A stretch of 64,000 nt of DNA from Thermotogaceae bacterium (GTDB lineage Bacteria; Thermotogota; Thermotogae; Thermotogales; Thermotogaceae): assembly GCA_027077795.1 (NCBI GenBank), contig JALWTT010000013.1, positions 1-64,000 on the forward strand, written 5' to 3'. The position numbers and the translations under genes were made by a program. Positions within the stretch are counted from its first letter, which is position 1; each line of letters begins with the position of its first letter. The notes beneath the pieces are model-generated. The model saw only the letters and a program-made list of their open reading frames with translations, searched no databases and was not told where the DNA came from. Positions 1,065-56,230 of this stretch are shown one piece after another.

Positions 1065-1093
1065 ATCTCTTTTCGGCGGTGGGGTGGCAGGAC

Positions 1094-1111
1094 TTTTCCA
1101 CGGATGGAAAA
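1094..1111 (+). other. Small hairpin between the two flagellin genes
   Basis: A perfect 7-bp inverted repeat (TTTTCCA / TGGAAAA) with a 4-base loop sits just before the Shine-Dalgarno (about 1118-1127) of the second flagellin. There is no U tract, so it is not an intrinsic terminator. It could affect mRNA stability or translation of the second flagellin; that role is inference. Confidence 0.4.
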
Positions 1112-1133
1112 TCTCACAAGGAGGTGAGAAAAG

Positions 1134-2285: not shown

Positions 2286-2297
2286 CAAGATTAACGA

Positions 2298-2326
2298 GGG
2301 GGGAGCATCTGCTCCCCCTTTCTTTT
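2298..2326 (+). terminator. Rho-independent terminator after the flagellin pair
   Basis: GGGGGAGC, a 4-base loop, then GCTCCCCC followed by TTTCTTTT. The 8-bp GC-rich stem and T tract begin 13 bases after the flagellin stop codon. This separates flagellin expression from the glycosyltransferase gene downstream. Confidence 0.93.
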
Positions 2327-2327
2327 G

Positions 2328-2333
2328 TATAAT
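2328..2333 (+). promoter_or_regulatory. Candidate -10 box for the glycosyltransferase gene
   Basis: A perfect TATAAT lies directly after the terminator T tract and about 13 bases before the GGGGTGA Shine-Dalgarno, implying a very short leader. No convincing -35 box is visible; the proper distance falls inside the terminator stem. Confidence 0.45.
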
Positions 2334-2352
2334 GCCTACAGGGGTGAAGAAG

Positions 2353-4977: not shown

Positions 4978-5004
4978 TAGAATTTCCAACGGAGGTGATG
5001 GATA

Positions 5005-5919: not shown

Positions 5920-5943
5920 GGCTTGCAGCTGGCTTGACCCGGA

Positions 5944-5971
5944 TTGTCCGAAGTGAGCTGAGGCTTATAAA
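5944..5971 (+). promoter_or_regulatory. Possible promoter in the 223-bp gap before glf
   Basis: The gap from 5920 to 6142 is one of the longest non-coding stretches here. It holds a possible sigma-A promoter (TTGTCC, 16-bp spacer, TATAAA), a weak 7-bp hairpin at 6070-6086, and a 10-codon open frame at 6110-6142. I see no clear terminator for the upstream gene and no recognisable riboswitch. Confidence 0.3.
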
Positions 5972-6142
5972 GGTTCTTCGCTTACCTCATGTTATAGCTG
6001 TGACTTTTGATGCTTCTTCATAGAACGAATATACACTGATTTCACTCTTAGTTTTATCTCGCCGGCTATAACCTTTGATAAAGGTTTGTTGAATTCCAGG
6101 TGAGATTAGATGAAGGAACCGTCAGAATCTTTGGAGGTGTAA

Positions 6143-7249: not shown

Positions 7250-9733
7250 ATTTTTCATCAAATTCACGTATCTATTTCCAAAAATCTCTATGGAGAAATT
7301 TTCTCTGTATATTTCATAATTTCTAAAACTGATCCCCTTCATGCTTTCCTTTTTGGAATGTGCTTCTTCGATGGCTCTTATCGCATCCTCAACATCTTCC
7401 CCTTTAAAATAAACGACGTCCATATCCCGAAACTGTTCAAAGCACTTGTTCCCTCCTGTATAGCTGAGAATAACGGGTTTTGACAATGACAGTGCTTCTA
7501 ATACCACTAAATCGAAAAAGGTTTCTCTATTAGGGGAGAGAAACACATCGCTGGCCAACATGATCTCCCATGGTTTTTTTGTGTAGCCAACCTCAATCCA
7601 TCTTGGATGGTCAACACCTTTCAGAGGACGTTGTCTACCTCCTATTAGAAAATATATATCTTCATATTTTCTAAGGATTTCTTCTCCTGCACTCTTCAAT
7701 ACATCAAAACCCTTTGTGAAGTTGTGCCTTCCAACATACGAAATTACAAAAGCGCCCGGTGGCACTCTATAGCGTTTTCTGACGTTGGTTCTAATTTCTT
7801 CTGAAGGCTTTCCCAATTCCACTTCAGGAACACCTGTGGGAATGTATTTAAACTTGTTTTCATCTACTCTTTCAAAGTATTTCCATCTCTTATAGTAAGA
7901 CTCTTTTGAGTGATAGCACGGGAAAATTACAACGTCAGCGTTATCAAATGCCACTATATCGATGTTCTCTAGCTTTTTATACACGGAATGTGATATGTCG
8001 GAAATTTTCATATTCCACCAGTCCTCTATTATCTCAATATGAGTGGGTTTTGGAGAGTGCGGTGTGAGGACAAGTTGGATGTCTTTAGGTTTTCCATATT
8101 GGTTTACAAATCTGTAAAGATTGATCGTATCATGAAAATGAATGCACTTGAATTTACGTAATTTATCCATCCGGAAAGGAAACGGTTTTTCTAACATTTC
8201 GTTGAAATCCTTTGCCGGCATTTGAACGTTTAGAAATTCCACCCAATCAATTTTTTCATCATCTAGAAATTTCTTCAAGTTATACAAATATCCGGATGGA
8301 CCTCCCTTTCTTCCCAACTTGAATGTGTTCCATATTAAAACCTTATTATTACCTTTACTGCTGGAGACTTCCGATAAAATGCCGTCAATACCTTTTAGTT
8401 GTGCTTCTAGCGTAAAACCTTTTTCAACTAAAAAGCTTCTGTATTCATTGGAGTTATACTCAGAGCTTAAGATGATGTTCAACGCTCCTTTCACATCGGA
8501 AAAAATCCAATCTCTTTTATACATCATCTCGGCTCCTCTAAACCAGTGAATAACAGGTTTTATACCTCGAGCCATTGCTTCCATTATGTTGTACGGGTGC
8601 CCTTCATGAAGACTGGTTGAAAGCAGGTAGTTCTTTCCTTTCCAAAACTCTTCCATATCGTCTACCCAACCGTGAAAAATCACATTTTTCTCAATGTTCA
8701 TTGCTTTCACTATGTGTCTCAAGTAGGTTTCGTATCGTGGATCTTGGAAGTCTCCAGCTATATGCAATCGGTATCTTGAATTGATTTTAGTGAGTTCTCC
8801 GATTATCTGAATGGCGAGCTCTGGCGCTTTTTTGTAGTTTATATGGGCAACCCACGCTATTTCAAACCCTGGTTTACGTTCCTCAAATGGGCTCCCCTCA
8901 AGTTTCACTCCATTGTATATAATTTCAAAATTCCTTATCAGGTCTTTTAGATCAGGAAATCTCTCAAAGAAGATTTCTTTTATATGAGGTGCGATAAATA
9001 TCAGGGCACTTACCAATCCCCAGTTAATTTCTCTAGGAAAATCTGTGAATATCTCATAACTGTGAAGCCTCACTATTACATCTTTCCCCCATATTCCCGG
9101 GTAATTTGTTCCAATCACCGCTACCTCATTCGCCCATTCAAGCCACACTATATCTGCCCAATCGATTGCAGTCTTTATTTCTTGATTATTTGTAACAGCC
9201 CAGCGTTGAATCCAATATCTATTTTGAAACCCCCTTGTTATATCGTCTATGAAATTATCTAAACCTTTGGCACAAATAAAAGCGAGCCTTTTTTTGGACT
9301 TTGAGCTTGATATTTTCTCCTTAAGGCCGTTTAAACGAAATTTCATGTTTGGAATAAATTCGGCAGGGGCACTTTTTAAAGCTTCTGATAAATGTTCTAG
9401 TGACTTATCATAGAATCCTTCGTAATCATAAATTACGGAAAGAATATCATGTACCGCCCAATCATTCGGTAATATTTTGATTAACTTTAAAGCGTAGCCC
9501 TTTGCTTTAGAGAATTTTCCCATTTGTAAATATATTTCCGCTATGTTGAACAATGCGTCTGTATTTTCAGGATCAAGATCAATGGCTTTCTTAAAACTTG
9601 AGATTGCTTTGTTGTTCTTACCTAAGTTGTAGTAAGCCCAGCCTAGCACAGTGAAATCATACGGATTTTCTGCATTTTCTTCTAAACTTTCTACAATCTC
9701 GTGGTAATCGTTGATAGTATTTACATGTTTCAC
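7223..9733 (-). CDS. TPR protein with two tandem GT-B glycosyltransferase domains
   Basis: Large predicted glycosyltransferase, about 836 residues. Residues ~1-140 form TPR repeats (YNLGKNNKAISSFKKAIDLD, FNIAEIYLQMGKFSKAKGYA). A first GT4-like domain follows (about 150-460, with IAWVAHINYKKAPELAI and the E-x7-E motif in HEGHPYNIMEAMARG). A second GT4-like domain occupies about 470-825 (SYVGRHNFTKGFDVL, then SPNRETFFDLVVLEALSLSKPV). I prefer the GTG start at 9733, preceded by GAGGTGA, over the ATG at 9766. It overlaps glf convergently, consistent with a surface-polysaccharide role, possibly galactofuranose addition (inference). Codons look more AT-rich than those of flanking genes. Confidence 0.82.
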   Translation of the reverse strand: MKHVNTINDYHEIVESLEENAENPYDFTVLGWAYYNLGKNNKAISSFKKAIDLDPENTDALFNIAEIYLQMGKFSKAKGYALKLIKILPNDWAVHDILSVIYDYEGFYDKSLEHLSEALKSAPAEFIPNMKFRLNGLKEKISSSKSKKRLAFICAKGLDNFIDDITRGFQNRYWIQRWAVTNNQEIKTAIDWADIVWLEWANEVAVIGTNYPGIWGKDVIVRLHSYEIFTDFPREINWGLVSALIFIAPHIKEIFFERFPDLKDLIRNFEIIYNGVKLEGSPFEERKPGFEIAWVAHINYKKAPELAIQIIGELTKINSRYRLHIAGDFQDPRYETYLRHIVKAMNIEKNVIFHGWVDDMEEFWKGKNYLLSTSLHEGHPYNIMEAMARGIKPVIHWFRGAEMMYKRDWIFSDVKGALNIILSSEYNSNEYRSFLVEKGFTLEAQLKGIDGILSEVSSSKGNNKVLIWNTFKLGRKGGPSGYLYNLKKFLDDEKIDWVEFLNVQMPAKDFNEMLEKPFPFRMDKLRKFKCIHFHDTINLYRFVNQYGKPKDIQLVLTPHSPKPTHIEIIEDWWNMKISDISHSVYKKLENIDIVAFDNADVVIFPCYHSKESYYKRWKYFERVDENKFKYIPTGVPEVELGKPSEEIRTNVRKRYRVPPGAFVISYVGRHNFTKGFDVLKSAGEEILRKYEDIYFLIGGRQRPLKGVDHPRWIEVGYTKKPWEIMLASDVFLSPNRETFFDLVVLEALSLSKPVILSYTGGNKCFEQFRDMDVVYFKGEDVEDAIRAIEEAHSKKESMKGISFRNYEIYRENFSIEIFGNRYVNLMKNLCIKGKSF

Positions 9734-9765
9734 GAAAATCACCTCAAAGGAATTTCCCCTCCACA

Positions 9766-12519
9766 TTAATTCCTGTTCATGATCCTTTTTACATAATCGG
9801 GAGGTTCTATCTTTTCAGCCCCTTCAACTTTTTCTATCTTTACGGCGGACACTTTGTAGGCTGGTATCCTAGATTCTGGATCGAGTATCTCCCCAGTGAG
9901 GAGATTCGCTCTAGCTTCGGCGAAATGGAACGGCATGAACACAACACCAGGTTGTGCTCTGTCGGTGACAACAGCATATGTCAGAACGCTTCCACGCCTT
10001 GAACTCACCTTCACGACATCGCCGCTCTTTATACCAAACTTTTCTGCATCCTCAGGGCTTATCTCCACGTAGGCCTTCCCCACTATCTCGTTTATTCCCT
10101 TGACTCTCCTTGTCATCGTACCTGTGTGAAAGTGATAGAGCATCCTTCCCGTTGTCATGAAAAGCGGGTACTCATCATCTGGAAGCTCTATTTCTTTTGG
10201 CAAGCTGTAATCAATCGGCTTTATCCTGCCTTTCTTATCCGGGAAGCTGAAGCCCTGTGTGTGAAGTATGGGGGTCCCTGGATGATTGAGATCAAGGACT
10301 GGCCACTGAAGGCCTTTCTTCTCTATCCTCCCGTAGGTCACGCCTCCATAGATAGGTGTCACCTTTCTTATCTCCTCCATTATCTCGCTCGGGTGAGAGT
10401 ATTCCATCTTGTATCCGAGCCTTTTTGAAAGCTCTTTTATTATCCACCAATCGGGTTTTGCATCTCCAACAGGCTCGAGAACTTTTCTAACTCTCAGCAC
10501 TCTTCTTTCGGTGTTGGTAAAAGTTCCATCCTTTTCATAAGCTGAAACGGCTGGGAGTATGACATTCGCGTATTTATTTGACTCGTTCATGAATATGTCA
10601 AAATCCACGAAGAATTCTAAATTCCTGAGAACCTCCTCAACGTGCTGCGAATCCGGATCCGACACGGCTGGATTCTCTCCCATCATTATCAAAGCTTTTA
10701 TCTGGGGAGACAAAAACATGTCGGTGAGGGCCAATCCAGGTTCATGTGGGAGCTTCACACCCCAAGCCTCTTCGAATTTCTTCCTCGCGTTTTCGTCGCT
10801 TACCTTTTGGTATCCCGGGTAGACATGTGGAAGTGCTCCCATATCGCACGCACCCTGGACGTTGTTCTGACCTCTGAGCGGATTGACTCCGGTTCCTTCC
10901 TTTCCGAAGTTTCCGGTGATCATGGCAAGGTCTGCGAGCGCCATGACATTCTGGGTGCCGTTGGAGTGCTGTGTTATACCCATGGCGTAAAGGATTGCCG
11001 CCCTGTCGGCTTCTCCGTACATTCTCGCAGCCTCGACTATCTTTTCCTTTGAAACTCCCGTTACTTTGCTCGCTCTGTCCATGTCAAAGTCTTTCAAAGA
11101 CTCGGCCAAGCTCTCAAAGCCAGTTGTTCTCTCCTTTATGAAATCCTCTTTGTGGAGCTTCTCATCGAGTATCACCTTCATCATGGCGGATATGAGGAGT
11201 GCATCGGTTCCGGGCTTGTGACGCAGGTGGATATGGGCCATCTTTGCGAGCTCGGTTTTTCTCGGATCCGCGACTATGAGCTTGGCTCCATATCTTCTGA
11301 CGGCCCTCTTTATTCTAGCTCCGTAAACCGGATGATTTTCCGTCGGATTTGCACCGATTATAAATATCACCTGTGCTTTTAGTATATCCATGAGGTTGTT
11401 CGACATTGCAGCGGATCCAAGAGTCTGCGCGAGCCCTACTATGGTTGAAGCGTGGCAGAGCCTTGCGCAGTGATCCACATTGTTTGTTCCTATGGCGGCC
11501 CTCGCTAGCTTTTGCATCAGGTAGTTCTCCTCGTTTGTACACTTGGCAGAAGATATGACTCCTATGGAATCCGGTCCGTATTTTTCTTTTATCCTCAAGA
11601 TCCCTTCAGCTGCGTAATCGAGGGCTTCCTCCCAAGTTGCCTCGACGAACTCTCCGTTTTTCTTTATGAGCGGCTTCGTGAGTCTGTCTTCACTCGAGAC
11701 GAACTCATATCCAAATTTTCCCTTGACGCATGTCAATACTCCGTCGTTTATCTCAGGATCTTCCTCAGAAGCTCTTATCCTGACGATTTCGTTCTTCTTC
11801 GGATCGTAGTAAACATCTAGCTGACATCCAACGCCACAATAAGGACATGTCGTTTTGACTTTCCTGACTTCCCACCATCGTGCCTTTCCGATGGATGGCT
11901 TCTCAACGATTGCTCCAACTGGGCATATCGTCGCGCATGCTCCACAGGATACGCAACTGCTCTCTCCAAGCTTGTCCCCCATATCAGGCTGTGGGAGAGA
12001 GTGGTAGCCTCTGTCCACCATGGAGTAGACTGACATGTTCTGAACTTCATCACATACTCTCACACAGAGCTGACATTGAATGCACTTGTTGAGGTCTCTG
12101 AGTATCAAAGGATGTGAATCATCTATTGGAAGGTTCCTGAGGCGTACTCCCCAGCGAGGCTCTTTTATCTGGTACTTGTAGGCGAGATCCTGGAGCGAAC
12201 AGTTTCCATTGGCGTCACATGTCATGCAATCGTTCGGATGGACAGAGAGAAGGAGCTCCATGTTCACCTTCCTGGCTCTTTCCACCCTTTCTGTTTTTGT
12301 CCATATCACCATTCCATCTTTTATCTTTGTCACGCACGCCGGATGAAGTTTTGGAGAACCTTCAATTTCAACGACACACATCCTACATGCACCTATGCTC
12401 TCAACCGACGGGTGATAGCAAAGCGTGGGTATATTAATGCCGACTTTCTTGGCTGCCTCTAGTATCGTGATTTCCCTTTCAAATTCGTATTCTTTACCAT
12501 CGATTTGTACTTTAATCAC
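9766..12519 (-). CDS. fdhA: Formate dehydrogenase catalytic subunit (Mo/W, Cys type)
   Basis: Molybdenum- or tungsten-bis-pterin oxidoreductase, about 917 residues, oxidising formate or reducing CO2. Domain order: N-terminal [2Fe-2S] ferredoxin (SIGACRMCVVEIEG), the His-Cys segment (DCMTCDANGNCSLQDLAYKY), two 4Fe-4S clusters (CIQCQLCVRVC and CVSCGACATICP), then the FdhF-type cluster (CPYCGVGCQLD) and the molybdopterin domains. The metal ligand is cysteine, not selenocysteine: codon TGC at 11467-11469 (DHCARLCHAS, about residue 351). The GTG start at 12519 has a GGAGGGG Shine-Dalgarno; the longer ATG start at 12567 would lie on the promoter. No partner diaphorase or electron-transfer subunit is encoded nearby. 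Confidence 0.93.
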   Translation of the reverse strand: MIKVQIDGKEYEFEREITILEAAKKVGINIPTLCYHPSVESIGACRMCVVEIEGSPKLHPACVTKIKDGMVIWTKTERVERARKVNMELLLSVHPNDCMTCDANGNCSLQDLAYKYQIKEPRWGVRLRNLPIDDSHPLILRDLNKCIQCQLCVRVCDEVQNMSVYSMVDRGYHSLPQPDMGDKLGESSCVSCGACATICPVGAIVEKPSIGKARWWEVRKVKTTCPYCGVGCQLDVYYDPKKNEIVRIRASEEDPEINDGVLTCVKGKFGYEFVSSEDRLTKPLIKKNGEFVEATWEEALDYAAEGILRIKEKYGPDSIGVISSAKCTNEENYLMQKLARAAIGTNNVDHCARLCHASTIVGLAQTLGSAAMSNNLMDILKAQVIFIIGANPTENHPVYGARIKRAVRRYGAKLIVADPRKTELAKMAHIHLRHKPGTDALLISAMMKVILDEKLHKEDFIKERTTGFESLAESLKDFDMDRASKVTGVSKEKIVEAARMYGEADRAAILYAMGITQHSNGTQNVMALADLAMITGNFGKEGTGVNPLRGQNNVQGACDMGALPHVYPGYQKVSDENARKKFEEAWGVKLPHEPGLALTDMFLSPQIKALIMMGENPAVSDPDSQHVEEVLRNLEFFVDFDIFMNESNKYANVILPAVSAYEKDGTFTNTERRVLRVRKVLEPVGDAKPDWWIIKELSKRLGYKMEYSHPSEIMEEIRKVTPIYGGVTYGRIEKKGLQWPVLDLNHPGTPILHTQGFSFPDKKGRIKPIDYSLPKEIELPDDEYPLFMTTGRMLYHFHTGTMTRRVKGINEIVGKAYVEISPEDAEKFGIKSGDVVKVSSRRGSVLTYAVVTDRAQPGVVFMPFHFAEARANLLTGEILDPESRIPAYKVSAVKIEKVEGAEKIEPPDYVKRIMNRN

Positions 12520-40958: not shown

Positions 40959-42805
40959 GTGGGAAGAGAAAAACGGTGATAATAGTCGAATCTCCTGCTA
41001 AAGCCAAGACAATAGAAAATGTTCTGGGTAGAGAGTACAAGGTCTTGGCGTCACGTGGTCACATAAGGGATCTTCCGAAGAAGAAGTTCGGCGTTTCTGA
41101 GGATCTTGAGCCCACTTTCGAGGTGATTCCGGGAAAGGAAAAGGTGATAGAGAAACTCGAAGAGGAGGTCAGGGGAAATAGGGTTCTCCTCGCTTCCGAT
41201 ATGGATAGAGAGGGAGAAGCAATCGCCTGGCACGTGTCAGAGGTTCTGAAGATTCCCAAGAGTGGCACGAGAATAACATTTTCCGAGATAACGGCACCGG
41301 CGATAAAAAAGGCAGTCGAAAACGTTAGAGATATAGACGAAAACTTAGTTCATTCTCAATTTGCGAGAAGGATTCTGGATAGGGTGGTTGGTTACTCTGT
41401 GAGCCCATTGCTTTGGAAGATATACAGGATCAACAACCTCTCCGCGGGAAGAGTGCAATCCGCTACGTTGAAGATAGTTTGCGAAAGGGAGAGGGAGATT
41501 TTCAGATTCAAGCCAAGGAAGTATTGGAGAGCTCAGTTGATCTCCAGCGGGGTTAAGTTTGAACTCGTCAGAATGAACGGGAAAAAGGTCGATAAAAATC
41601 TCAAAGAAGAAGATTTAGCAGCCCTTCAAAGTCTCAGGGAAATAGCAGTTCATTCTGTTGAAACCAGGAGAGTTAAGAGAACTCCTCCTGATCCATTCAC
41701 AACCAGTACCCTTCAGCAAACATCTGCTGCGAGGCTTCACTTTACTGTGAAAAAGACCATGATGATCGCTCAACAGCTCTATGAGGGAGTTGACACCCCT
41801 GAAGGTCACAGAGCTTTCATAACGTATCACAGAACGGATTCCATTAGGGTTTCAGAAGAAGCTGTGAAAGCCGCTAATAGGTTCGTTTCATCGAATTTTG
41901 GATCTGAATATGTTGGAAAAGGGAAGAAGTTCAAGAGAAAGAGAAACGTACAAGATGCTCATGAGGCGATAAGACCGGTGGATGTCAACATCACACCGGA
42001 GATTGCGAAAAAATTATTGCCGGAGGATCATGCCAGACTCTATGAACTCATCTGGAGAAGATTCATGGCGTCTAGGATGGCCCCATCTGTTTACGACGAG
42101 ATGGTGGTTATTCTCAGAGAGGGAGTATTCGAGTTTGAGGCAAAGCTTCAGAGGAGGACTTTCGAGGGATTCGAAAGGGTTTGGAAGAGGGAAATCGAGG
42201 AGACTTGGGGGGATTTCAAAGAGGGACAGATGCTAAAGGTGGACGAGTTGAAGGTCTTCGAGGATTCCACCAAACCTCCTGACAGATTTTCCGAGGGTAC
42301 CCTCGTCAAGGAGATGGAAAGGCTTGGGATAGGAAGGCCGTCGACTTATGCGCCGACTATATCCACTCTCCTGTCGAGAAAGTACATTGTGAAGAGAAAT
42401 GGGAAGCTTTACCCGACTCTTCTGGGATTTCTCATACTCGACTATCTGGAAAAGAGTTTCCCAGAGATAGTGGATGTCAAGTTCACCGCCAGAATGGAGG
42501 AACAGTTAGACCTCATAGAGAAAGGGGAAAAGCCTCACAAGGAAATTCTGAGGGAGTTTTTGAAGAAATTCAAGGAAGATCTTGAGAAGGCCGAGAAGGA
42601 GTTTTTCAAAGTGGATTACGAAACGGACTACAGATGTGAATGTGGTTCTTTCACTAGACTGTTAACCGGCAGATATGGAATATATCTGAAGTGCCCGTCT
42701 TGTGGGAAAACCAGAAGTGTGAAACCATCTTACACGGCTGTTCTCATCGATGGAAAGATATTCTTCCCATGGAGGAAAGAGAGATTAGAAACTGAAAATG
42801 GTTAA
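40955..42805 (+). CDS. topA: DNA topoisomerase I (type IA)
   Basis: 616 residues. Toprim domain (VIIVESPAKAKTIENVLG, ASDMDREGEAIAWH), catalytic Tyr291 in FITYHRTDSIRVS, and GRPSTYAPTI. A single C-terminal zinc finger (CECGSF ... KCPSCGK) follows, fewer than the three in E. coli TopA and similar to short thermophile enzymes. Relaxes negative supercoils. ATG overlaps the kinase stop. Confidence 0.98.
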   Translation: MSGKRKTVIIVESPAKAKTIENVLGREYKVLASRGHIRDLPKKKFGVSEDLEPTFEVIPGKEKVIEKLEEEVRGNRVLLASDMDREGEAIAWHVSEVLKIPKSGTRITFSEITAPAIKKAVENVRDIDENLVHSQFARRILDRVVGYSVSPLLWKIYRINNLSAGRVQSATLKIVCEREREIFRFKPRKYWRAQLISSGVKFELVRMNGKKVDKNLKEEDLAALQSLREIAVHSVETRRVKRTPPDPFTTSTLQQTSAARLHFTVKKTMMIAQQLYEGVDTPEGHRAFITYHRTDSIRVSEEAVKAANRFVSSNFGSEYVGKGKKFKRKRNVQDAHEAIRPVDVNITPEIAKKLLPEDHARLYELIWRRFMASRMAPSVYDEMVVILREGVFEFEAKLQRRTFEGFERVWKREIEETWGDFKEGQMLKVDELKVFEDSTKPPDRFSEGTLVKEMERLGIGRPSTYAPTISTLLSRKYIVKRNGKLYPTLLGFLILDYLEKSFPEIVDVKFTARMEEQLDLIEKGEKPHKEILREFLKKFKEDLEKAEKEFFKVDYETDYRCECGSFTRLLTGRYGIYLKCPSCGKTRSVKPSYTAVLIDGKIFFPWRKERLETENG

Positions 42806-42830
42806 AGAATTTGCCAAAAGAGGTGAAACT

Positions 42831-44021
42831 TTGAAATTGTTCACTTTGGTGGCTTCGTTTGTATCGGTGTTTCTGATGATATATCTTGCGTTTTTCTTCC
42901 CCGGTTTTGTTTTGAACCATTTCCTGACGGGCTTCAGGTTGAAAAGTCCCATGCATTTTCTCATAGTCGGTCATGACAGGAATATCGAAGGAACTTCGAG
43001 GGCTGATGTCATACTGGTTGTAGGGCTGGATCTTGAGAAAAAGAAGATGCTCCTTTTGAGTGTGCCGCGAGATCTAGAGTGGAACGGAAAGAGAGTCAAC
43101 TCGTACTTCAACTTCGGAGTGAACAAGCTGAAGGGGATTGTGGAAGACATATTGGGGATAAAGATGGACGGGTATGCTGTGTTCGACTACAACTCGTTCA
43201 AGATTTTGGGTGATGAGCTTGGACCAGTTGAAGTCGTCGTGAAGGAGCCGATGAACTACGTGGATGAGGTTCAGAACTTGAGGATAAATTTCTTACCGGG
43301 TGTTCACAAGTTGAATGGAGAACAACTTCTGGCGTATATAAGGTACAGAAAAGGTGGAATGGGAGATTTGGACAGAATAAAGAGACAAAGAGAGGTTTTC
43401 TCCGAGCTGTTTTCAAAAGCTTTGAACATGTCAGTTGAGAGAGCAGCTGACTTGTATTCAAAACTAATGAACAGCGTTAGCACGGATATCAGCGAGTCTG
43501 AGATAATGGCAATCCTTTTAAGGTTAAAAAGAGGGGTGTCGATGAATTTCATGCAGCTTCCTGTGAAACCACTTGATAATGGTAGAGTGGTACTCGATGA
43601 GAAAAAATTCAAAGATGTAAAAGAAAGATTTCTCACCTTTGCCACCGAAAGTTCGGGGAGAGCTTATCACATAGTCCTGATGAACGCCAAGAGAAATAAA
43701 AGCAAGTATTTCAGGCCCATAGAGGAAAAGCGCTGGATACTCATGGTTGGATTCAAACCAGATGAGATTCTTTGGGAAGACACCGGTATTATTCTCAAAG
43801 GTAGCATTCTTTTGATCTGCACGAAGGATCACAAGGCACGGGAGGATCTGTACAGGATAGTCGAGAAGGTTTATCCCCACAGAAGTTTTAAAGTCAGGTG
43901 GGCAGCTTATCTGGATGGTGCGGATCTGTACTACAGGATAATGGAGAGGGCTCTCAAGATAAGAAGGTATCTGGAAAGACCCATAGATGCCGTGGTAATT
44001 CTGGGGGAAGTTGGAGGATGA
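42831..44021 (+). CDS. LytR-CpsA-Psr (LCP) family protein
   Basis: About 396 residues. One N-terminal membrane helix (FTLVASFVSVFLMIYLAFFF), then the LCP domain: FLIVGHDRNIEGTSRADVI, LLSVPRDLEWNGKRVNSYF, GVHKLNGEQLLAYIRYRKG, GDLDRIKRQREV with the conserved Asp/Arg residues that bind polyprenyl pyrophosphate. LCP enzymes attach glycopolymers to peptidoglycan or proteins. A C-terminal LytR_C-like region follows. TTG at 42831 is preferred because GAGGTGA precedes it; ATG 42798 lies inside topA. Common in monoderms, less so in diderms. Confidence 0.88.
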   Translation: MKLFTLVASFVSVFLMIYLAFFFPGFVLNHFLTGFRLKSPMHFLIVGHDRNIEGTSRADVILVVGLDLEKKKMLLLSVPRDLEWNGKRVNSYFNFGVNKLKGIVEDILGIKMDGYAVFDYNSFKILGDELGPVEVVVKEPMNYVDEVQNLRINFLPGVHKLNGEQLLAYIRYRKGGMGDLDRIKRQREVFSELFSKALNMSVERAADLYSKLMNSVSTDISESEIMAILLRLKRGVSMNFMQLPVKPLDNGRVVLDEKKFKDVKERFLTFATESSGRAYHIVLMNAKRNKSKYFRPIEEKRWILMVGFKPDEILWEDTGIILKGSILLICTKDHKAREDLYRIVEKVYPHRSFKVRWAAYLDGADLYYRIMERALKIRRYLERPIDAVVILGEVGG

Positions 44022-47417: not shown

Positions 47418-48398
47418 GTGTTTGAAAAGTTGAGGGAAATCGATGAGGATGGGATCTTTATTGTGTATCCATCCGAGTTTGATTCCATAGAGCTGATGAA
47501 TCTCATGGCACCCTCCTTCGTTGTAGGAATTAAGGATGGTGGATACATAGTGATATTCGATCCCAGGAGCACGACTGTTTCCGGAATGTTTGAAACCACG
47601 AATAGCCCTTCCTTGAGACGTATTGAAGAGATGTTTCGGACCCTCTTGCACATGGATGTCTCGGTTGAGAAAAAGATGAGCTTTGAAAATTCCACGAGTA
47701 TCATAGACTCCATAAGAGAAGATGTGGAATTCTACGAAAGTATGGGGGTTGCCGTGCTCGAGACAGATTCTTCCGAACCTCTGAGCGAAGTGGAGTTCTC
47801 AAAAGTGCTTGACAGGTTCCGGATATTCGCCATGGTTTCAAGCTACACGAAAAATCAGAGGTACTCGCCGGAGGAGTGTTTCATCTCCCTATCACCTGGG
47901 GTGTCCGGTATGAGTGCTTTCCTATCTGTGGAGACTAGGTTTATGATCTGGCTGAAGAATGAGACGAAAGTCGAAGGGGAGAAATTTCGGTATTCTCTGA
48001 TAAGAGCTTTCAACGTCGTCGTCGCGAAGTTGACCGGGAAATTCGGGTACGAGAGGATGTCAATTCTTCCGTATGAGACCATGATCATTCTCACGAGAGA
48101 TGTGGAGAAGTTCGAGAAGTTCTTAAAGGTACTGGATGCGCTCAATGAGAAGATAAAGCCGTATCTCGTGAGCAAGTTCCCCATTTGGGCTGAAAAGATG
48201 AGGTCGTTCGAAAAGATAAACATCATAGATGCGGTAAAGTCAAAGGAGGACTTTCTCGATATGATAGCGTCCATACCGAACGACAGAGGGGTGGAAATAT
48301 TGAAAAGTAGGATATCGAGTTCCATCGAGGATTTCAACAACCGACTTTCTATGATAGGTGAGGAGTTGGGAAAATGGATGGAAGATCTGCTGAGATAA
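47418..48398 (+). CDS. Unknown protein, first gene of the Pel-type operon
   Basis: 326 residues; I do not recognise a family. No signal peptide or membrane helix is visible, so it is likely cytoplasmic. It appears alpha/beta with a charged helical C-terminus (ISSSIEDFNNRLSMIGEELG). Segments such as GIFIVYPSEFDSIELMNLM and YIVIFDPRSTT look like buried strands. GTG start with GGGGAGGGGAG upstream. It overlaps the next gene by 25 bp, so it is co-translated with the polysaccharide genes and is a candidate accessory or regulatory component. Confidence 0.7.
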   Translation: MFEKLREIDEDGIFIVYPSEFDSIELMNLMAPSFVVGIKDGGYIVIFDPRSTTVSGMFETTNSPSLRRIEEMFRTLLHMDVSVEKKMSFENSTSIIDSIREDVEFYESMGVAVLETDSSEPLSEVEFSKVLDRFRIFAMVSSYTKNQRYSPEECFISLSPGVSGMSAFLSVETRFMIWLKNETKVEGEKFRYSLIRAFNVVVAKLTGKFGYERMSILPYETMIILTRDVEKFEKFLKVLDALNEKIKPYLVSKFPIWAEKMRSFEKINIIDAVKSKEDFLDMIASIPNDRGVEILKSRISSSIEDFNNRLSMIGEELGKWMEDLLR

Positions 48399-50512
48399 TG
48401 CTTTTGGTTTTAATTGGAACGCTCTTGTTTCCCAAGGTGCTGCTGCTTTACAAATCCTCAGAGAATGGATACGGCTACAGTCTGTTGAAGACCTATATAG
48501 TGCCATCTTTGAACGAGATAGGCGAGAGCTACGACTTCGTTGATATCGAAAAGGGTTTCCCGAATTTTTCCGGATACGAGATGGTGATAAGCTGCTACTA
48601 TTCCTCCAAGATGAAAGGTGCAAAATCGTATTTGAGAAAGCTTGAGAAATACCTATCTGGAGGAGGAAAACTCTTCGTTATAAACAACCTAGGGGCTTTT
48701 TCAGATCCAAATGGTCCTTCCCCATCCCTTGCGGATTTGAATTCGGTTTTCAACCTACTAGGGGTGGAGTACGAATACGGTTGGAAAAAGATCGTAGCAA
48801 AGTACTCCTACGATGAGAGATATTTGACTGGACCTGTTCCGAAAAACAAGGTGATTTCCATGGACGAGTTTGAGGTGTTCGCAAAAAAGACAAAGGTTAT
48901 CCTAAGCGTTAAAGATTCCGGAAAGATCTATCCCCTGGTTTTCTTCAACAGAAAGGGAGGAGTTGCGCTGTACGACAGCGCTTTCAACGAGAAAGGGGTC
49001 CCATTTTTGAACCTCGGGAAGATAGTTAAGGAAATAATCCTGGACCATAGTGGAAACATTGCGCTCTTTCTGGGAAGAAATGAAAGCGTTGAGGAGATGC
49101 TGAGGGAATTGCATTTCACAATAGTGAGGGATACTAGAAGACTCTCACGGGATCCGGAGGTTGTATTCGATTTCAACAAGGATTTGAAGGATGTTGAGAG
49201 CTACTTAAAAAAAGGAATAACAGTCGTTTGGATAACCACTGGCGATAAGGTGGCAGAGGGAACGGTGAATCTCGATGATTCGCTGGATATCCCTAGGAAA
49301 GTCCCAACTTACAATACAAAGGTTAGATACTTCAGCGCCCCAGGTGAATTCACACCATTGCTCGATATAGATGGGAAAGCTGTTGCATGGCTTTCCGGAA
49401 ATCTGGTGTATTTTCCGGCAGATCTAGCGGTGAAGGAGTTCCGGGGGGTTATATTGGATTCCGTGATGATGGCTGCTAAACGTATCGCCATCCCAATTGT
49501 AAACGGTTTTGCCATATTTCTGGACGATTTCCCTCTACCAGCATACAACGTGAAAAGAAAAATGATAACCCGAGAATTCGGGGATATAACGGATGGGGAA
49601 TTCTACTATGATATATGGTGGAAAGATATGGAAAAGCTTGCGAAGGATTTGAACCTTCACTACATTTCGGCGCTTGTAACTGCCTACAGTGACAAGCCCT
49701 ATCCCCCATATGATTTTATGGAATTCCTGGAAAGCAAGCTTCCGATTGAATTCTTGGAAAGAAGCCATGAGAATTTGGAAGTAAATCTCCACGGATACAA
49801 CCACCTCTCTCCGATATCGAAGAATTGGAATGAGGAAAATCTGATCGAAGCTTACCGATCCCTTGATGTTTTCCTGGAGAATATCTGTGATTTTGAACCA
49901 GTGGTTTTTGTGGCTCCGAACAACAAGGTTGATTGGATGGGTGCAGAAGCCGTCAAGCGGGTTTTCCCAACTGTTGAGGTTCTAGGAACTGCGTATTATG
50001 GTGATGAATCGCTGGATTTCGGCGAGTTTGGATACAGAAAAGGATTTGTAATCATCCCTAGAACGACCAGTGGATATTATCCCATGAATCGCCTTCTTTA
50101 CCAATCGATATCCACAGTTCTGAGTTTGGGAACGTATCAGTATTTCATCCACCCAGATGACCTGTTCTCAAAGGACAGAAATCCAAGCAGTTTGAAGTGG
50201 AAAACCATGCTTGGAAAGCTCAAGGAGTTCTTGAAAACGATGAAAACTTACTATCCCTGGCTGAGGATGCTCACGGGAAAGGATATAGCGGTTATTTTCA
50301 AAGATTATTTTGAAAGTGTTCCAAAGATCGTCTATTCAAGTGAAAGTATTATGATCAAATTTGGAATATCCGTGAGGCTCCCAAGGTACTTCTTCGTGAA
50401 GGCAGGAAAAGATATGAGGATAAAGGGTGGTAAGCTGATCTATGCTATGAAAAATTTCAAAGTTGTGGAGATGACCGATTACGAGATGATCATAAACTTT
50501 GTGAAAAAGTGA
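48374..50512 (+). CDS. DUF2194 / PelA-like polysaccharide deacetylase
   Basis: 712 residues with an N-terminal signal anchor (IMLLVLIGTLLFPKVLLLY). The first ~370 residues form an unassigned extracellular region. The deacetylase part carries the motifs expected for de-N-acetylation of polymer: Asp384-Asp385 (AIFLDDFPLPAYN) and His473-x3-His477 (NLHGYNHLSPIS), typical of carbohydrate esterase 4-like folds. In Gram-positive pel loci a PelA-type deacetylase is membrane-tethered in the same way. ATG 48374 with GAGGAG upstream. The family label DUF2194 is from memory of similar architecture. Confidence 0.72.
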   Translation: MDGRSAEIMLLVLIGTLLFPKVLLLYKSSENGYGYSLLKTYIVPSLNEIGESYDFVDIEKGFPNFSGYEMVISCYYSSKMKGAKSYLRKLEKYLSGGGKLFVINNLGAFSDPNGPSPSLADLNSVFNLLGVEYEYGWKKIVAKYSYDERYLTGPVPKNKVISMDEFEVFAKKTKVILSVKDSGKIYPLVFFNRKGGVALYDSAFNEKGVPFLNLGKIVKEIILDHSGNIALFLGRNESVEEMLRELHFTIVRDTRRLSRDPEVVFDFNKDLKDVESYLKKGITVVWITTGDKVAEGTVNLDDSLDIPRKVPTYNTKVRYFSAPGEFTPLLDIDGKAVAWLSGNLVYFPADLAVKEFRGVILDSVMMAAKRIAIPIVNGFAIFLDDFPLPAYNVKRKMITREFGDITDGEFYYDIWWKDMEKLAKDLNLHYISALVTAYSDKPYPPYDFMEFLESKLPIEFLERSHENLEVNLHGYNHLSPISKNWNEENLIEAYRSLDVFLENICDFEPVVFVAPNNKVDWMGAEAVKRVFPTVEVLGTAYYGDESLDFGEFGYRKGFVIIPRTTSGYYPMNRLLYQSISTVLSLGTYQYFIHPDDLFSKDRNPSSLKWKTMLGKLKEFLKTMKTYYPWLRMLTGKDIAVIFKDYFESVPKIVYSSESIMIKFGISVRLPRYFFVKAGKDMRIKGGKLIYAMKNFKVVEMTDYEMIINFVKK

Positions 50513-50521
50513 GGTCACAGT

Positions 50522-51892
50522 TTGGCCGGAATAGGGTTCAAACTCAGAGAGGTTATGAAGAAGAAATTGCTTGTGTTCGATGTTGGAGCGATATTGTACG
50601 CCGTTCTCACAACTTCTGGTCCTTGGCTGATATCTTCGGCGTACATGCTAATAGTGTCGAAATTCTCGAATGTGGACATTTTTTTCACCTCTAGTCTTAT
50701 ATACGCTTTCATTTTCTCCATGATTATATCAGGTGGCTTATCGTTTTTAATCATTAGATACGCGGCGGATGCTTTTTACAGAAAGGATCTGGAAGCGGTC
50801 AGGAAAGCCTATGGTGGCTCCCTGCTTTTCGTAGCCAGCATATCTGCTTCCATCTCCGGGATTTTCTTCCTAGTTCACCACTGTTACAGTGCACCCAATA
50901 TAATACTTTCCATATATTCCCTTACAGCTCTTTCCGTGCTATGGGTACAGATGATATTCGTTTCGGTTTCGGAGAGATTCCTCCCAGTGATACTCTCTTA
51001 TCTGGCGGGGTTCTCCCTTTCCCTAACCCTATCTCTCGTTCTTAGGGCACATCACCTCTTTTTCTTCGACATAGGCATCGGTTTGACAGTGTTCTTGCAG
51101 AACAACTTCATCGTGAAGGTCATAGGGTTTCCCGAAGGTATCTCAATGGATTTTCTCAGAATCTTCAGAACATATCCTCAGAATCTATTCATAGGCTTGG
51201 GATACTACACAGCCGTCTGGGCGGACGATCTCCTGGCGTGGTTCCTCATGGGAAGAGAAGTATTGCCAGGCTTCAGATTTGCCGTAGATTATGATATTCC
51301 AATGTTTCTCGCCTATCTTTTCGTCATACCATCGCTTTCGATGTTCGTCTTTCTGGTGGAAACGGAATTTTACACGGAGTACAAGAGATTCTATCTTAAA
51401 CTCGAAAAGGGAGCTGGCCTTTGGGAAATAAAAAGTCAAGCAGAGAGAATGAGAGAATCAGTTTATTATTCCATCGGTTCCATAGCTGCTGTTCAGATCG
51501 CTGCAGCCTTTGTTGGGATATCCATGAGTGAAACTTTAAAGAAGCTTGGGTTGTCCGCTGTTGCAGCGGGAGTTTTCAAATGGGGCTTGGTGGGGGCGAG
51601 TTTCAACGTCATGTTTCTCACAATCCTTCTGATAACTCTGTACTTTGACTTCAGGGATTTGGCACTTCAAGGGGTTATCGTTTCATTTGTGTGCAACATC
51701 TTGTTTTCAGTTCTAACAATGAAGTTCCACCCAGGTATGGGATTCGCGATGGCGCTCGGCGTGGCGTTCGTATACCTTGCGGTGAGACTCAGAGCAAGAC
51801 TAAATGAGGTCATAATGTACACTTTTACACACATGAAATCGGGCTTGGAGAAATCCGTTCCAATGGTGGTGAAAAACCGTGAAATCAAATGA
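50522..51892 (+). CDS. pelG: PelG-like membrane transporter
   Basis: 456 residues, about twelve membrane helices (for example AILYAVLTTSGPWLISSAYM, AGFSLSLTLSLVL). The N-terminus AGIGFKLREVMKK is the typical PelG start. PelG is a MATE/MOP-like inner-membrane protein that partners PelF, PelD and PelE to synthesise and export the Pel polymer. TTG start at 50522 with GAGGTCACAG upstream. Overlaps pelD by 14 bp. Confidence 0.9.
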   Translation: MAGIGFKLREVMKKKLLVFDVGAILYAVLTTSGPWLISSAYMLIVSKFSNVDIFFTSSLIYAFIFSMIISGGLSFLIIRYAADAFYRKDLEAVRKAYGGSLLFVASISASISGIFFLVHHCYSAPNIILSIYSLTALSVLWVQMIFVSVSERFLPVILSYLAGFSLSLTLSLVLRAHHLFFFDIGIGLTVFLQNNFIVKVIGFPEGISMDFLRIFRTYPQNLFIGLGYYTAVWADDLLAWFLMGREVLPGFRFAVDYDIPMFLAYLFVIPSLSMFVFLVETEFYTEYKRFYLKLEKGAGLWEIKSQAERMRESVYYSIGSIAAVQIAAAFVGISMSETLKKLGLSAVAAGVFKWGLVGASFNVMFLTILLITLYFDFRDLALQGVIVSFVCNILFSVLTMKFHPGMGFAMALGVAFVYLAVRLRARLNEVIMYTFTHMKSGLEKSVPMVVKNREIK

Positions 51893-53033
51893 AGTGTACA
51901 TGTACGTGGAACTTCCTTTGGTATATGTTTTGAGTGTGGTCTTGGATGGCTGGTTTCTTCAAGGCTTCTCGTTGAAGGTAATATGGCTGACTCTGATCTT
52001 CTATTCCGTGAGAAGGGGAATACTGATTCACGTTCTTTCAGTTTCCATGTTCTTCCTGAGTATATTCCTCGAAGAGACTGCTTTCATGGTAAATGTGAAT
52101 CTCCTGGAATCATCAGTTTTAGTAGGCGTGACAACCGTGACGGCCCTTATCAACACTTTTAGAATGCACAAAATGAGGTATCTAATGCGAGACTTAAATG
52201 AAAAGGACAGGGAGATTTCAGAGCTTAAGGATAGGATCACGTATATGAAGTCAATTATAGAAGATCTGAGAGACAGGATATTCTATGAGGGAGAAGGGAT
52301 ATCTTCGTTGTTCATGAAACTCAAAGACGTTCGTATGGATAACTCCAGAATATTCTACGGGGATTTCGTAAAAATAGTCTCCGATTTCTTTTCAATACCC
52401 GGGATGTCGGTCTATCGATATAGACACGGTTTCTACAGACTTCTGGCTTCAACAAAACCTTCCATATTTGGTTTCACTTTCAGAGAAGGGGTTTCTGTCG
52501 TAGTTGATGAAGCGGTGAAGAAGGGGAGTGCCAGGATAACGGATCTGTTTGATAGAGAACTTTCCAACGTTGAACCGTGGATGGCTGTGAGCATAGGAAA
52601 AGAGCCAAAGGGTATGCTGATTGTTGATGAAATAGACCCGGCCAAGCTCAACAAGCCATATGAAAAATATCTGTCCGCGTTGTGCTCATGGCTCGATGCT
52701 ATGATGGGAAGGGTAGAAGAGTTCGAAATTCTGAAGGGAAATAGGCTCCCCGATAGAACTTATCCCCCTGATATGTACGAAGAAATAAGAGAAGAACTCG
52801 AGGATATGGAGAAGTCGGGCTTGCCCTTCTCCGAGGTGTGCATATGTTCGGATAAGATAGACGAGATCCTGAGATTTCTGAGGGAAGATGACATATCAAC
52901 CAGGTTTAAGAGAAATGACTATGAGTGCTTGAGAATACTTCTGCCTATGTGTGATGATCATGGAAAGAAAAGATTTTTAGAAAGGCTGAGGAGAAGTCTC
53001 GGTGAAGATCCGAAAATTTGTGATGTGGATTAA
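51879..53033 (+). CDS. pelD: PelD-like cyclic-di-GMP receptor
   Basis: 384 residues. Four N-terminal membrane helices (LPLVYVLSVVLDGWFLQGF onward), a coiled linker (LNEKDREISELKDRITYMKS), a GAF-like domain (~140-275), and a C-terminal degenerate GGDEF. In P. aeruginosa PelD the inhibitory-site RxxD binds cyclic-di-GMP and precedes RNDEG in place of GGDEF. Here Arg335-Glu-Asp-Asp338 is followed by Arg345-Asn-Asp-Tyr-Glu349 at similar spacing, so binding is likely retained while cyclase activity is not. GTG start after GGTGG. Confidence 0.85.
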   Translation: MKSNEVYMYVELPLVYVLSVVLDGWFLQGFSLKVIWLTLIFYSVRRGILIHVLSVSMFFLSIFLEETAFMVNVNLLESSVLVGVTTVTALINTFRMHKMRYLMRDLNEKDREISELKDRITYMKSIIEDLRDRIFYEGEGISSLFMKLKDVRMDNSRIFYGDFVKIVSDFFSIPGMSVYRYRHGFYRLLASTKPSIFGFTFREGVSVVVDEAVKKGSARITDLFDRELSNVEPWMAVSIGKEPKGMLIVDEIDPAKLNKPYEKYLSALCSWLDAMMGRVEEFEILKGNRLPDRTYPPDMYEEIREELEDMEKSGLPFSEVCICSDKIDEILRFLREDDISTRFKRNDYECLRILLPMCDDHGKKRFLERLRRSLGEDPKICDVD

Positions 53034-53808
53034 CTTTCTGTCTGGCTTGTTCAATGTATATCTTTTCTTGGAGGGATATCATGTTCTCTCCCTTACCCTC
53101 TTTGGGCTGAACCTGACCGTGGTATATGTGGTTTCAAAAAGTCCAGCACAGCTCTTCATATCCGCTGTTAGCTACCCACTGGGGCTTTTACATTTCCATT
53201 GGAAACCCTCGTGGAGAGGAATCGAGCATGTGGGTGTGGATATAAAGGCCAGTGAGAGTGAACCCGAGGAGAACATGCTCACCATGAAGGATTACATATT
53301 TATAGGAACCCCAGGTGAGAAAAAGTCAGCTATTCTCGAGTTGGTGGAAAAGGTTTTATCTGGTTCACTCAGAGCGGGGGAAGTTGTAAACGTCCTGAAG
53401 CACTTTCTTTCTGATGAACACCCGGATGTGGCTCTTTACGCGTCGGAGGGAATAGAAAAAGTGGAGATATACCTGATAGAAAAGATGAATAAATTCAAGG
53501 GCGATCCGTTAGAGTTTGTAAAGGTTATATTGGATTACATAGATTCCGGATTCGCATATGGAAATTTGAAGAGTCACTACAGATCAATGGCTCTTGAATC
53601 GCTGAAAAGTGTGGAAAAGGGCAAGGAATTTTACCTCCTATCATACAGGCTGACAGGTGATAAAGGTTTTCTGGAGAAAGGTTTGAAGGAGACCCACTCT
53701 AAGGAAATTGCAAGAGAGCTCGCTTTGGCAGAGATAGCCAGCGGAAATGTTAAAAGGGCTTCAAAGATTTGGAAAGAATTCGTTCAGGAGGATGAAAGAT
53801 CCTCGTAG
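53002..53808 (+). CDS. pelE: PelE-like membrane/TPR protein
   Basis: 268 residues. Two N-terminal membrane helices (FVMWINFLSGLFNVYLFLEG, then a second near VVYVVSKSPAQLF) followed by a soluble helical-repeat region (~110-268), matching PelE architecture. PelE scaffolds PelD, PelF and PelG at the inner membrane. GTG start with GAGGAGA upstream; overlaps pelD by 32 bp. Ends in a 25-bp convergent overlap with pelF. The call rests on layout and neighbours more than on motifs. Confidence 0.75.
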   Translation: MKIRKFVMWINFLSGLFNVYLFLEGYHVLSLTLFGLNLTVVYVVSKSPAQLFISAVSYPLGLLHFHWKPSWRGIEHVGVDIKASESEPEENMLTMKDYIFIGTPGEKKSAILELVEKVLSGSLRAGEVVNVLKHFLSDEHPDVALYASEGIEKVEIYLIEKMNKFKGDPLEFVKVILDYIDSGFAYGNLKSHYRSMALESLKSVEKGKEFYLLSYRLTGDKGFLEKGLKETHSKEIARELALAEIASGNVKRASKIWKEFVQEDERSS

Positions 53809-55169
53809 AGCTTTCTATAGGAGTCTACCATTTTCTCAAGTGAGTAATTCCTTTCAACTATTTCCCTCCCGTTTTTTCCAAGTTCCTCTCTTAGATTTCT
53901 GTCATGCAGCCTGATAATAGCTTTAGCCATGGATATGTAATCTTTTGGCTTCACGATGAAGCCCGCTCTTTTTCCGTCTTTCTCCACCATTTCCTTGCAT
54001 CCCCCGACATCGGTTGACACAACCGGTGTACCACCGGCCATCGCCTCGAGGATCACAAGAGGTTGACCCTCTGAAACGCTACTGAGGAGCAGCACGTCTA
54101 TTTTTGGATAGACCTCTGTGGTATCCATAGGGCCTGTGAAAACTACAGAATCTTCGAGTTGTAGTATACCCAGTAGAGAGAAGAGCTCTTCCCTATAATC
54201 TTCATCCTCCATTGGACCAACTACTATGAATTTGGAGTCCGGGATCTCATCTTTCACAATTCTGAAAGCTTTGATTGCGGTTTTGAGATCCTTGATACGG
54301 GAGATTCTCCCCACGAATCCTACTGTAAATCCGGGGTGAGATTCCTTGGAGAGGCCGTACTTCTCAATATCAATTCCGTTGGGGATTACGAGCATTTTAT
54401 CTTTGTCAGCACCGAGTTCCAGCTGAAAGAGCTGGTTTTTCTCAAACAAAGTAACAAGCTTATCGGTAAGCCTGTAGGCTACCGCACTTATCACCCTGAA
54501 AAAACCTATCCAAAGCTTCTTGTAGATCTCACTGATGGAATCTGAGATCAATATCTCTCTTTCCCTTTCCCTGTGGTATATACCGTGTTCAGTTATCAAG
54601 AGTTTTGATTCGTAAATTAGTTTACCAGCTATGGCGTTCAGCGAGGAGTAACCCGTCGTGAGCGAGTGGTAGATATCACATCTTTCAGGGATAAATTGAA
54701 ATGCGTTTAAAAAGGGCAAGAGGAGATTTCTCATCGTCCAATAGTAATTCATGAAACTCTCCTTTTCGAAAAAGCGGTTGTAAACGTCGACGAGCACCTT
54801 CCAAACCCCCCTGCTTTTCACCACAGATACCATGTCTTTTCCCACAGATTCCCTGAGAGCTTCAACAACAGTTGAGGCTATCTTGGTAACGTTTTGATTG
54901 TAAAGAGCACTTTCATAAATCGCCTCCAAGATCTTCTCATCCGCTTTTTCCTTGAGATTCCATTCTACATCGGAGAAGATGTTCAAGGTGTGCATTGAGG
55001 AAACGTTTCCCGGTATTTTGTATTTAAACTCCCTTTTCTTGGAATCTGGAGATAGGTGGTAAATCGAGAACTCTATTTCCGGGAGATTTTCCATGAGTGT
55101 ATGAAGCCAGCTGGAAACCCCGCCTGTCACATACGGATATGTGCCTTCAACCATTACACATACTTTCAC
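53784..55169 (-). CDS. pelF: PelF-like GT4 glycosyltransferase
   Basis: 461 residues, cytoplasmic. N-terminus VCVMVEGTYPYVTGGVSSWLH is the PelF signature. GT-B features: LLITEHGIYHREREREI, VIPNGIDIEKYG, VGFVGRISRIKDLKTAI, and E-x7-E in SEGQPLVILEAMAGGTPV. PelF polymerises the Pel chain from UDP-HexNAc. It is encoded on the strand opposite pelG, pelD and pelE, an unusual arrangement, and probably has its own promoter next to trpS. GTG start. Confidence 0.93.
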   Translation of the reverse strand: MKVCVMVEGTYPYVTGGVSSWLHTLMENLPEIEFSIYHLSPDSKKREFKYKIPGNVSSMHTLNIFSDVEWNLKEKADEKILEAIYESALYNQNVTKIASTVVEALRESVGKDMVSVVKSRGVWKVLVDVYNRFFEKESFMNYYWTMRNLLLPFLNAFQFIPERCDIYHSLTTGYSSLNAIAGKLIYESKLLITEHGIYHREREREILISDSISEIYKKLWIGFFRVISAVAYRLTDKLVTLFEKNQLFQLELGADKDKMLVIPNGIDIEKYGLSKESHPGFTVGFVGRISRIKDLKTAIKAFRIVKDEIPDSKFIVVGPMEDEDYREELFSLLGILQLEDSVVFTGPMDTTEVYPKIDVLLLSSVSEGQPLVILEAMAGGTPVVSTDVGGCKEMVEKDGKRAGFIVKPKDYISMAKAIIRLHDRNLREELGKNGREIVERNYSLEKMVDSYRKLYEDLSSS

Positions 55170-55243: not shown

Positions 55244-56230
55244 TTGAAGGTGTTGAGCGGAATGAGACCAACTGGAAAACTTCACATAGGTCACCTCGTA
55301 GGGGCATTGGAGAACTGGGTCAGACTCCAGGATGAAGGCCATGAGTGCTACTATTTCGTAGCAGATTGGCACGCTCTCACAACCCATTACGATGAAACGG
55401 GGCATTTGAAGGAATACACAAGGGACATGGTCAGGATGTTCCTGGCAGTTGGTATAAATCCAGAGAAGAGTGTGATCTTCGTTCAATCCGCTATAAAAGA
55501 GCACGCTGAACTTGCACTTCTTTTCTCTATGCTCGTGTCTGTTTCAAGGCTCGAGAGGGTACCAACGTACAAGGAGATAAGAAAGGAGCTCAACTATAAG
55601 GATTTGTCAAATGCGGGTTTTCTGATATATCCGGTCCTTCAAGCTGCGGATATCTTGGTTTACAAAGCAGAGGGGGTTCCTGTTGGGGAGGATCAGGTCT
55701 ACCATGTGGAGCTCACGAGAGAAATTGCTAGGAGATTCAATTCGCTCTACAAACCTGTTTTCCCGGAACCCCAAGCGATCCTCTCTCATACACCAAAGCT
55801 TCCGGGAACCGATGGTAGGAAGATGAGTAAAAGTTATGGGAACATCATCCCACTCGAATCGGATGAGGAGACTCTCAAGAAGATGATAATGCCGATGATG
55901 ACGGATACCGCGAGGAAGAGAAGAACCGATCCTGGGAATCCAGACAATTGTCCAGTTTGGCTTTATCACAAGGCTTTTGGAATAAGTGAGGAAGAAGCGA
56001 GATGGGTTAGAGAAGGATGTACACAGGCTAAGATAGGGTGCATAGATTGCAAAAAGCTCCTTCTGAAGAACATGAAGGAAAAGCTTCAGCCAATTTGGGA
56101 TAGGCTGGCTGAGATCGACAAGGACCCACATTATGTGGAGGACGTGATATTGGAAGGCAATAAAAGGGCTAGGGAAGTAGCCAGAAGGACACTTGAGGAA
56201 GCTAGGGAAGCTATGAACCTCATGTTTTGA
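55244..56230 (+). CDS. trpS: Tryptophanyl-tRNA synthetase
   Basis: 328 residues, normal length. Class I motifs HIGH (TGKLHIGHLVGALENW) and KMSKS (GRKMSKSYGNI), with GEDQVYHVELTREIARRFN. Charges tRNA-Trp. TTG start at 55244, six bases after GGAGGTG; the in-frame extension to 55097 lies over pelF. First gene of a plus-strand run to 62268. Confidence 0.97.
   Translation: MKVLSGMRPTGKLHIGHLVGALENWVRLQDEGHECYYFVADWHALTTHYDETGHLKEYTRDMVRMFLAVGINPEKSVIFVQSAIKEHAELALLFSMLVSVSRLERVPTYKEIRKELNYKDLSNAGFLIYPVLQAADILVYKAEGVPVGEDQVYHVELTREIARRFNSLYKPVFPEPQAILSHTPKLPGTDGRKMSKSYGNIIPLESDEETLKKMIMPMMTDTARKRRTDPGNPDNCPVWLYHKAFGISEEEARWVREGCTQAKIGCIDCKKLLLKNMKEKLQPIWDRLAEIDKDPHYVEDVILEGNKRAREVARRTLEEAREAMNLMF

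Follow-up and report, generated by a model that had tools for sequence, protein, structure and literature searches.

In a thermophilic diderm member of the Thermotogota, we identified a compact gene cassette that probably encodes a c-di-GMP-switched, synthase-type machine for a Pel-like polymer, built after the Gram-positive pelDEADAFG type. The host is represented by a genome assembly of 1.72 Mb (16 contigs, 96% complete; G000), and the window, i.e., the stretch of 64,000 nucleotides that we analyzed, lies on its contig C13. Judged from its sequences, the host is a diderm of the same family group as Thermotoga maritima: profile searches recovered Omp85 both in this genome and in 56 of the 61 genomes of the class, and the single membrane implied by the name of the Gram-positive pel type does not apply here. 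An earlier note on this DNA had proposed just such a Gram-positive-like gene set in a diderm lacking PelB and PelC, and all five of the components that it named could be identified.

What we infer for product chemistry, complex formation, regulation and export is as follows. Once c-di-GMP fills the I-site of PelD, a complex of PelD, PelE, PelF and PelG would polymerize UDP-GalNAc and carry the chain across the inner membrane, yielding a proposed Pel-like cationic alpha-1,4-GalNAc/GalN polymer. A membrane-anchored CE26-type deacetylase would strip acetyl groups while the chain leaves PelG, and a separate secreted GH191 hydrolase, the ortholog of TM1410, would trim or recycle the polymer; the outer-membrane step would take place without PelB and PelC.

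The pel cassette and its products

The cassette spans positions 48374-55169 and comprises five intact frames, in the order DUF2194/PelADA-pelG-pelD-pelE with a convergent pelF (Table 1); neighboring forward genes either overlap or have 9 bases between them. The earlier note had opened the locus at 47418; the cassette proved real, but its start moves to 48374 (or to the ATG at 48398), the preceding frame being a flanking gene. The inversion of pelF relative to the rest, likewise pointed out before, was confirmed, and synteny comparisons found the opposite strand kept in most of the host's family.

Table 1. Coordinates in the window of the cassette genes and of the two genes that flank them.
Feature	Position	Strand	Basis and remarks
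Left flank outside pel, 326-aa protein	47418..48398	+	Orthologs in pel-less relatives
DUF2194/PelADA-type polysaccharide de-N-acetylase	48374..50512	+	PF09960; in-frame ATG at 48398 is a possible start
pelG, inner-membrane polysaccharide transporter	50522..51892	+	PF16933; TTG start
pelD, membrane helices, GAF and degenerate GGDEF, predicted I-site R335xxD338	51879..53033	+	Profile, fold
pelE, two N-terminal membrane helices and helical-repeat domain	53002..53808	+	Profile comparison, conserved position
pelF, GT4 glycosyltransferase	53784..55169	-	NF038011 equivalog; convergent to the other four
Right flank outside pel, trpS	55244..56230	+	TTG start at 55244; synteny, junction comparison

PelG (PF16933; E 1.3e-96, 324.7 bits against a cut-off of 29) and PelF (NF038011; E 9.1e-96, 321.8 bits against a cut-off of 100) both widely exceed the cut-offs of curated models, in line with their having been recognizable from the letters. 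When scanned singly against Pfam, PelD matched below threshold and PelE gave no match; therefore, both were examined by profile and structure comparison. With hhalign, a profile of 22 Thermotogota PelD sequences aligned with proteobacterial PelD over 361 columns (probability 97.7, E 2.4e-12). The best five PDB matches of the PelD AlphaFold model (pLDDT 83) in Foldseek searches were P. aeruginosa PelD entries; the TM-scores were low, which we read as domains that match but would differ in relative orientation. A profile from the Thermotogota rows alone matched no PelD structure; a mixed one of Thermotogota, fusobacterial and proteobacterial rows matched 4DMZ/4DN0 (E 1.7e-14), in an alignment that pairs the RxxD motif and an arginine further along. 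The motif residues R335 and D338 are invariant across the 22 Thermotogota PelD sequences and constitute two of only five PelD positions invariant across Thermotogota, Fusobacteriota and Proteobacteria. The host PelD is thus predicted to carry the c-di-GMP-binding RxxD I-site; in Bacillus cereus, the corresponding residues are needed for c-di-GMP binding and biofilm (PMC7112168). The host genome contains ten GGDEF matches. Some 25 kb downstream of the cassette, contig C13 has an open frame of 782 aa in which GGDEF is matched twice (G000:C13:80234-81961; L082).

PelE is the weakest of the five assignments: its profile aligned with proteobacterial PelE only in the helical part (probability 96.1, E 3.5e-9; hhalign). 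The model (pLDDT 86) shows two membrane helices and helical repeats, for which the PDB yielded weak TPR-like matches, and the position of pelE within the loci is conserved in synteny comparisons. Both proteins, each below the Pfam cut-off alone, were in this way assigned to the Pel families named in the earlier note and not to unrelated ones.

The first gene of the cassette codes for the DUF2194/PelA-like deacetylase noted before (PF09960, E 9.6e-134), and its profile matched PDB 9ZAU, the PelADA of B. cereus, with E 1.8e-80. It is of the CBM114-CE26 type with an N-terminal membrane anchor, and profile and sequence alignments point to a stand-alone PelADA with a complete catalytic site: D384/D385, H473/H477, R563, H593 and D596 are all conserved, mapping to D262/D263, H350/H354, R458, H488 and D491 of the CE26 enzyme (PMC13254593). 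DUF2194 exceeded its cut-off in 28 of the 30 genomes with PelG and in none without it. The two PelG genomes that lack it (G022 and G032, Pseudothermotoga-like) also lack the GH191 hydrolase discussed below; in their loci (L049, L052) pelF-pelG-pelD-pelE are kept, with deacetylase and hydrolase absent together, and the product may therefore vary.

A hydrolase encoded apart from the cassette

The hydrolase and deacetylase that are fused in PelA are here separate, the former being encoded on contig C6 (L080:8598-9485). This GH114-like protein, overlooked in the earlier note, is predicted to be the counterpart of the PelA hydrolase: it is orthologous to TM1410 (E 2e-83), retains D156 and E225 and, given an upstream start, would probably carry a signal peptide. 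Among those of the 61 class genomes that are at least 90% complete, a GH191/GH114 hydrolase occurred in 25 of 26 with PelG and 1 of 26 without it (Fisher p 2.7e-12, a value that ignores relatedness). The match also holds within genera where PelG comes and goes (g3, g5, g7 and g12; partly g1). The position of the hydrolase gene is shared by G000 and its pel-less congener G002, which dates the gene to before their split.

One of the class genomes, G010, encodes a hydrolase 100% identical to TM1410 and was therefore taken as T. maritima; it has the same pel cassette, back-to-back with TM1410 (L038). TM1410 belongs to CAZy family GH191 (PDB 2AAM, 9EUX, 9EUZ) and its substrate is unknown (PMC12054363). 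In the 2025 paper founding that family no activity was seen for it; it was inactive on fungal galactosaminogalactan, Pel is not reported among the substrates tried, and the homolog Env-GH191 acts on Pel (PMC12054363); the text mentions neither pelF nor an operon. Since TM1410 adjoins the T. maritima pel genes, its family tracks PelG and a homolog acts on Pel, self-made Pel appears the obvious candidate substrate. Thus, a solved enzyme without a substrate would gain a likely one, and what had been a phylum-level note on Pel in Thermotogae becomes a testable system in T. maritima, on whose biofilm polysaccharide our literature search found nothing concerning pel genes. Some Thermotoga genomes have a second tandem pelG-D-E-F set (L041, L050, L053); beside TM1410, T. 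maritima has only a 245-aa pelF-like fragment (L038:12749-14435), apparently a remnant of such a set.

With its hydrolase included, the host system resembles the pelDEADAFG locus of B. cereus ATCC 10987 in PelF, PelG, PelE, a PelD with RxxD, a stand-alone CE26-type deacetylase, a separate PelA-type hydrolase and the lack of PelB and PelC (PMC7112168, PMC13254593). It differs in its diderm setting, its gene order, the inverted pelF and the unlinked hydrolase of the TM1410/GH191 type, and in that its product is a predicted one. With pelABCDEFG of P. aeruginosa it shares PelD, PelE, PelF and PelG, and deacetylase and hydrolase are both represented; however, two separate proteins stand in place of PelA, and the PelB barrel and PelC ring, which form the PelBC export complex (PMC12141448), were not detected.

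Genomic history of the cassette

Orthologs of the left flanking gene, 43-67% identical, occur in five other genomes (G001, G002, G003, G004 and G007), three of them without PelG, and directly adjoin trpS in all of these but G003. Its product lacks a Pfam match and has close homologs only within the host's family (31 genomes searched); both in genus g3 and in that of the host, the gene is kept next to trpS. As a pel component it was ruled out, for it occurs in pel-less relatives. In the two congeners without PelG (G001 and G002), trpS is the immediate neighbor of this gene and the other flanks are all colinear, and the adjacency recurs in g3. This makes the cassette a discrete, cleanly joined insertion of some 6.8 kb. 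A junction comparison found the ribosome-binding site of trpS intact after the insertion.

The pel genes have a native-like GC3 of 0.49-0.52, which leaves a recent transfer from a compositionally different donor unsupported. In a PelG tree, the host sequence pairs with that of G003 with full support, and families f2 and f3 are split between two well-supported clades. Many genera of the class have the cassette, with varied gene order, and T. maritima is among its carriers; tree and gene orders are together consistent with pel cassettes having moved between families.

Crossing the outer membrane

The absence of PelB and PelC from the locus, already remarked on in the earlier note, extends to the rest of the genome in profile searches. 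For the PelB barrel (PF24604), no candidate was found in the host and none over the cut-off in 61 class genomes; the model detects Pseudoalteromonas PelB, and the 14 control genomes gave no positive control. PelC was found neither in the host nor in the 52 best genomes with a profile (A7) built from only three sequences, whose single weak match lay in an incomplete genome. These absences rest on draft genomes and profile sensitivity, which a fast-evolving barrel would escape. As for other exporters, OEP was not found in the host genome, ruling out TolC as the exit there; in G003, pelF has a TolC-like (OEP) gene starting next to it in divergent orientation (L048:14183-15175). A Wza-like Poly_export domain exceeded the cut-off in 51 of 61 genomes, was equally common in those without PelG and was missing from the near-complete, PelG-positive G052 and G037, leaving a Wza-type protein unsupported as a Pel-specific exit. 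Hence, none of the PelB, TolC and Wza-like families tracks PelG in the class, and when the surroundings of the pel loci were crudely screened for outer-membrane-like proteins, no conserved candidate emerged. Thermosipho-type loci encode a protein of 128-193 aa between pelE and pelF; as a stand-in for PelC it was rejected, for it looks inner-membrane-anchored and helical. The outer-membrane exit is thus a real gap, and one that concerns the class rather than this genome in particular.

A comparable situation is seen in the Fusobacteriota, where Cetobacterium somerae (L061) and Fusobacterium vincentii (L064) have PelB-less pel sets of the DUF2194 type. Like the host, they are diderms with a GH114-like hydrolase and without PelB and PelC; unlike the Thermotogota, they encode directly after pelG a 305-316-aa protein (L061:14102-15019, L064:14320-15270) that has a signal peptide, lacks a membrane helix and ends in FEYVF/FEYIF. 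We predict it to be an outer-membrane barrel and a candidate for PelB-independent exit of Pel. The two versions are about 30% identical to each other; that of Cetobacterium matched nothing in Pfam or the PDB, and a search for homologs in Thermotogota returned none that was credible. Fusobacterial PelG is also extended at its C-terminus (704-772 versus 456 aa), a feature likewise confined to that side of the comparison.

We give about even weight to the proposition that Thermotogota, and Fusobacteriota by means of a different part, move Pel independently of PelB, be it through an unrecognized pore or as a polymer that stays periplasmic or links the toga. Of the routes considered for the exit, an unrecognized small outer-membrane barrel encoded elsewhere seems the likeliest, although we put it somewhat below an even chance. 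A little less probable is that a dedicated pore does not exist, the polymer being retained in the toga or in the large periplasm that separates it from the wall, or passing through general toga porins, with a periplasmic or sheath-linking role. Such retention would agree with the failure to detect PelB, PelC or TolC in the host, with exporter families that do not follow PelG, and with a deacetylase and hydrolase whose predicted site of action is beyond the inner membrane; against it, Fusobacteriota with the same gene set have a dedicated barrel candidate, and Pel elsewhere is an extracellular matrix polymer. Exit through the Wza-like Poly_export/SLBB protein on contig C6 (L081:4452-7922), which has a Wzz/kinase-like neighbor, strikes us as unlikely: its presence in the host and the prevalence of its family in the class speak for it, but the gene is not linked to pel, and the family neither tracks PelG nor occurs in every PelG-positive genome.

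Two further readings concern the cassette as a whole. That the Pel-family enzymes make a different polymer, with another amino sugar or as a wall-linked glycopolymer, would suit their large divergence (PelG is about 27% identical to its proteobacterial counterpart), the failure of TM1410 on the related galactosaminogalactan (PMC12054363) and an LCP glycopolymer transferase encoded 4 kb upstream (42798-44021). We nonetheless consider this improbable, as the deacetylase active site is complete and the hydrolase family that tracks pel has a member cutting Pel (PMC12054363); the LCP gene lies at the same place in pel-less G002 and is therefore not linked to pel, which rules it out as a partner. 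A functionless element, newly inserted in this host or decaying, to which the empty site in two congeners and in g3 might point, is very hard to reconcile with intact frames, conserved catalytic and I-site residues, native-like GC3 and a retained partner hydrolase. A machine for a Pel-like polymer thus remains our preferred reading of the cassette.

How far this constitutes new biology, as the earlier note had it, needs qualification. Pel operons in Thermotogae were recorded in a pipeline survey in 2020, the consulted parts of which treat the same system and phylum and say nothing on the absent outer-membrane part, on TM1410 or on the history of the locus (PMC7112194). The PelB-less Gram-positive pelDEADAFG type has been published and characterized (PMC7112168), and Fusobacteriota, a second diderm phylum, have the same gene set; what stands of the claim is the gap at the outer membrane. 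Relative to the literature searched, and as far as that search went, the class-wide lack of PelB and PelC alongside a complete modification set, the link to TM1410, the insertion history and the fusobacterial barrel candidate appear new. A full set for Pel synthesis and modification is thus kept by diderms of at least two phyla without detectable PelB and PelC, and either outcome, a new barrel exit or a periplasmic polymer, would if true revise the understanding of synthase-dependent polysaccharide secretion.

Two other regions of the host genome may be recorded here. On contig C6 (L081:3017-9817), the gene for the 1156-aa Poly_export/SLBB protein has as neighbors the Wzz/kinase-like gene and one for a secreted, beta-rich protein of 476 aa that matches nothing in Pfam; the region is possibly a general polysaccharide exporter of the host. 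At 51-9766 of the window, two flagellin-like genes are followed by three others: a large one of TPR/glycosyltransferase-like type, one resembling UDP-galactopyranose mutase, and a glycosyltransferase-like one of 847 aa; by sequence, this region resembles one for flagellin glycosylation.
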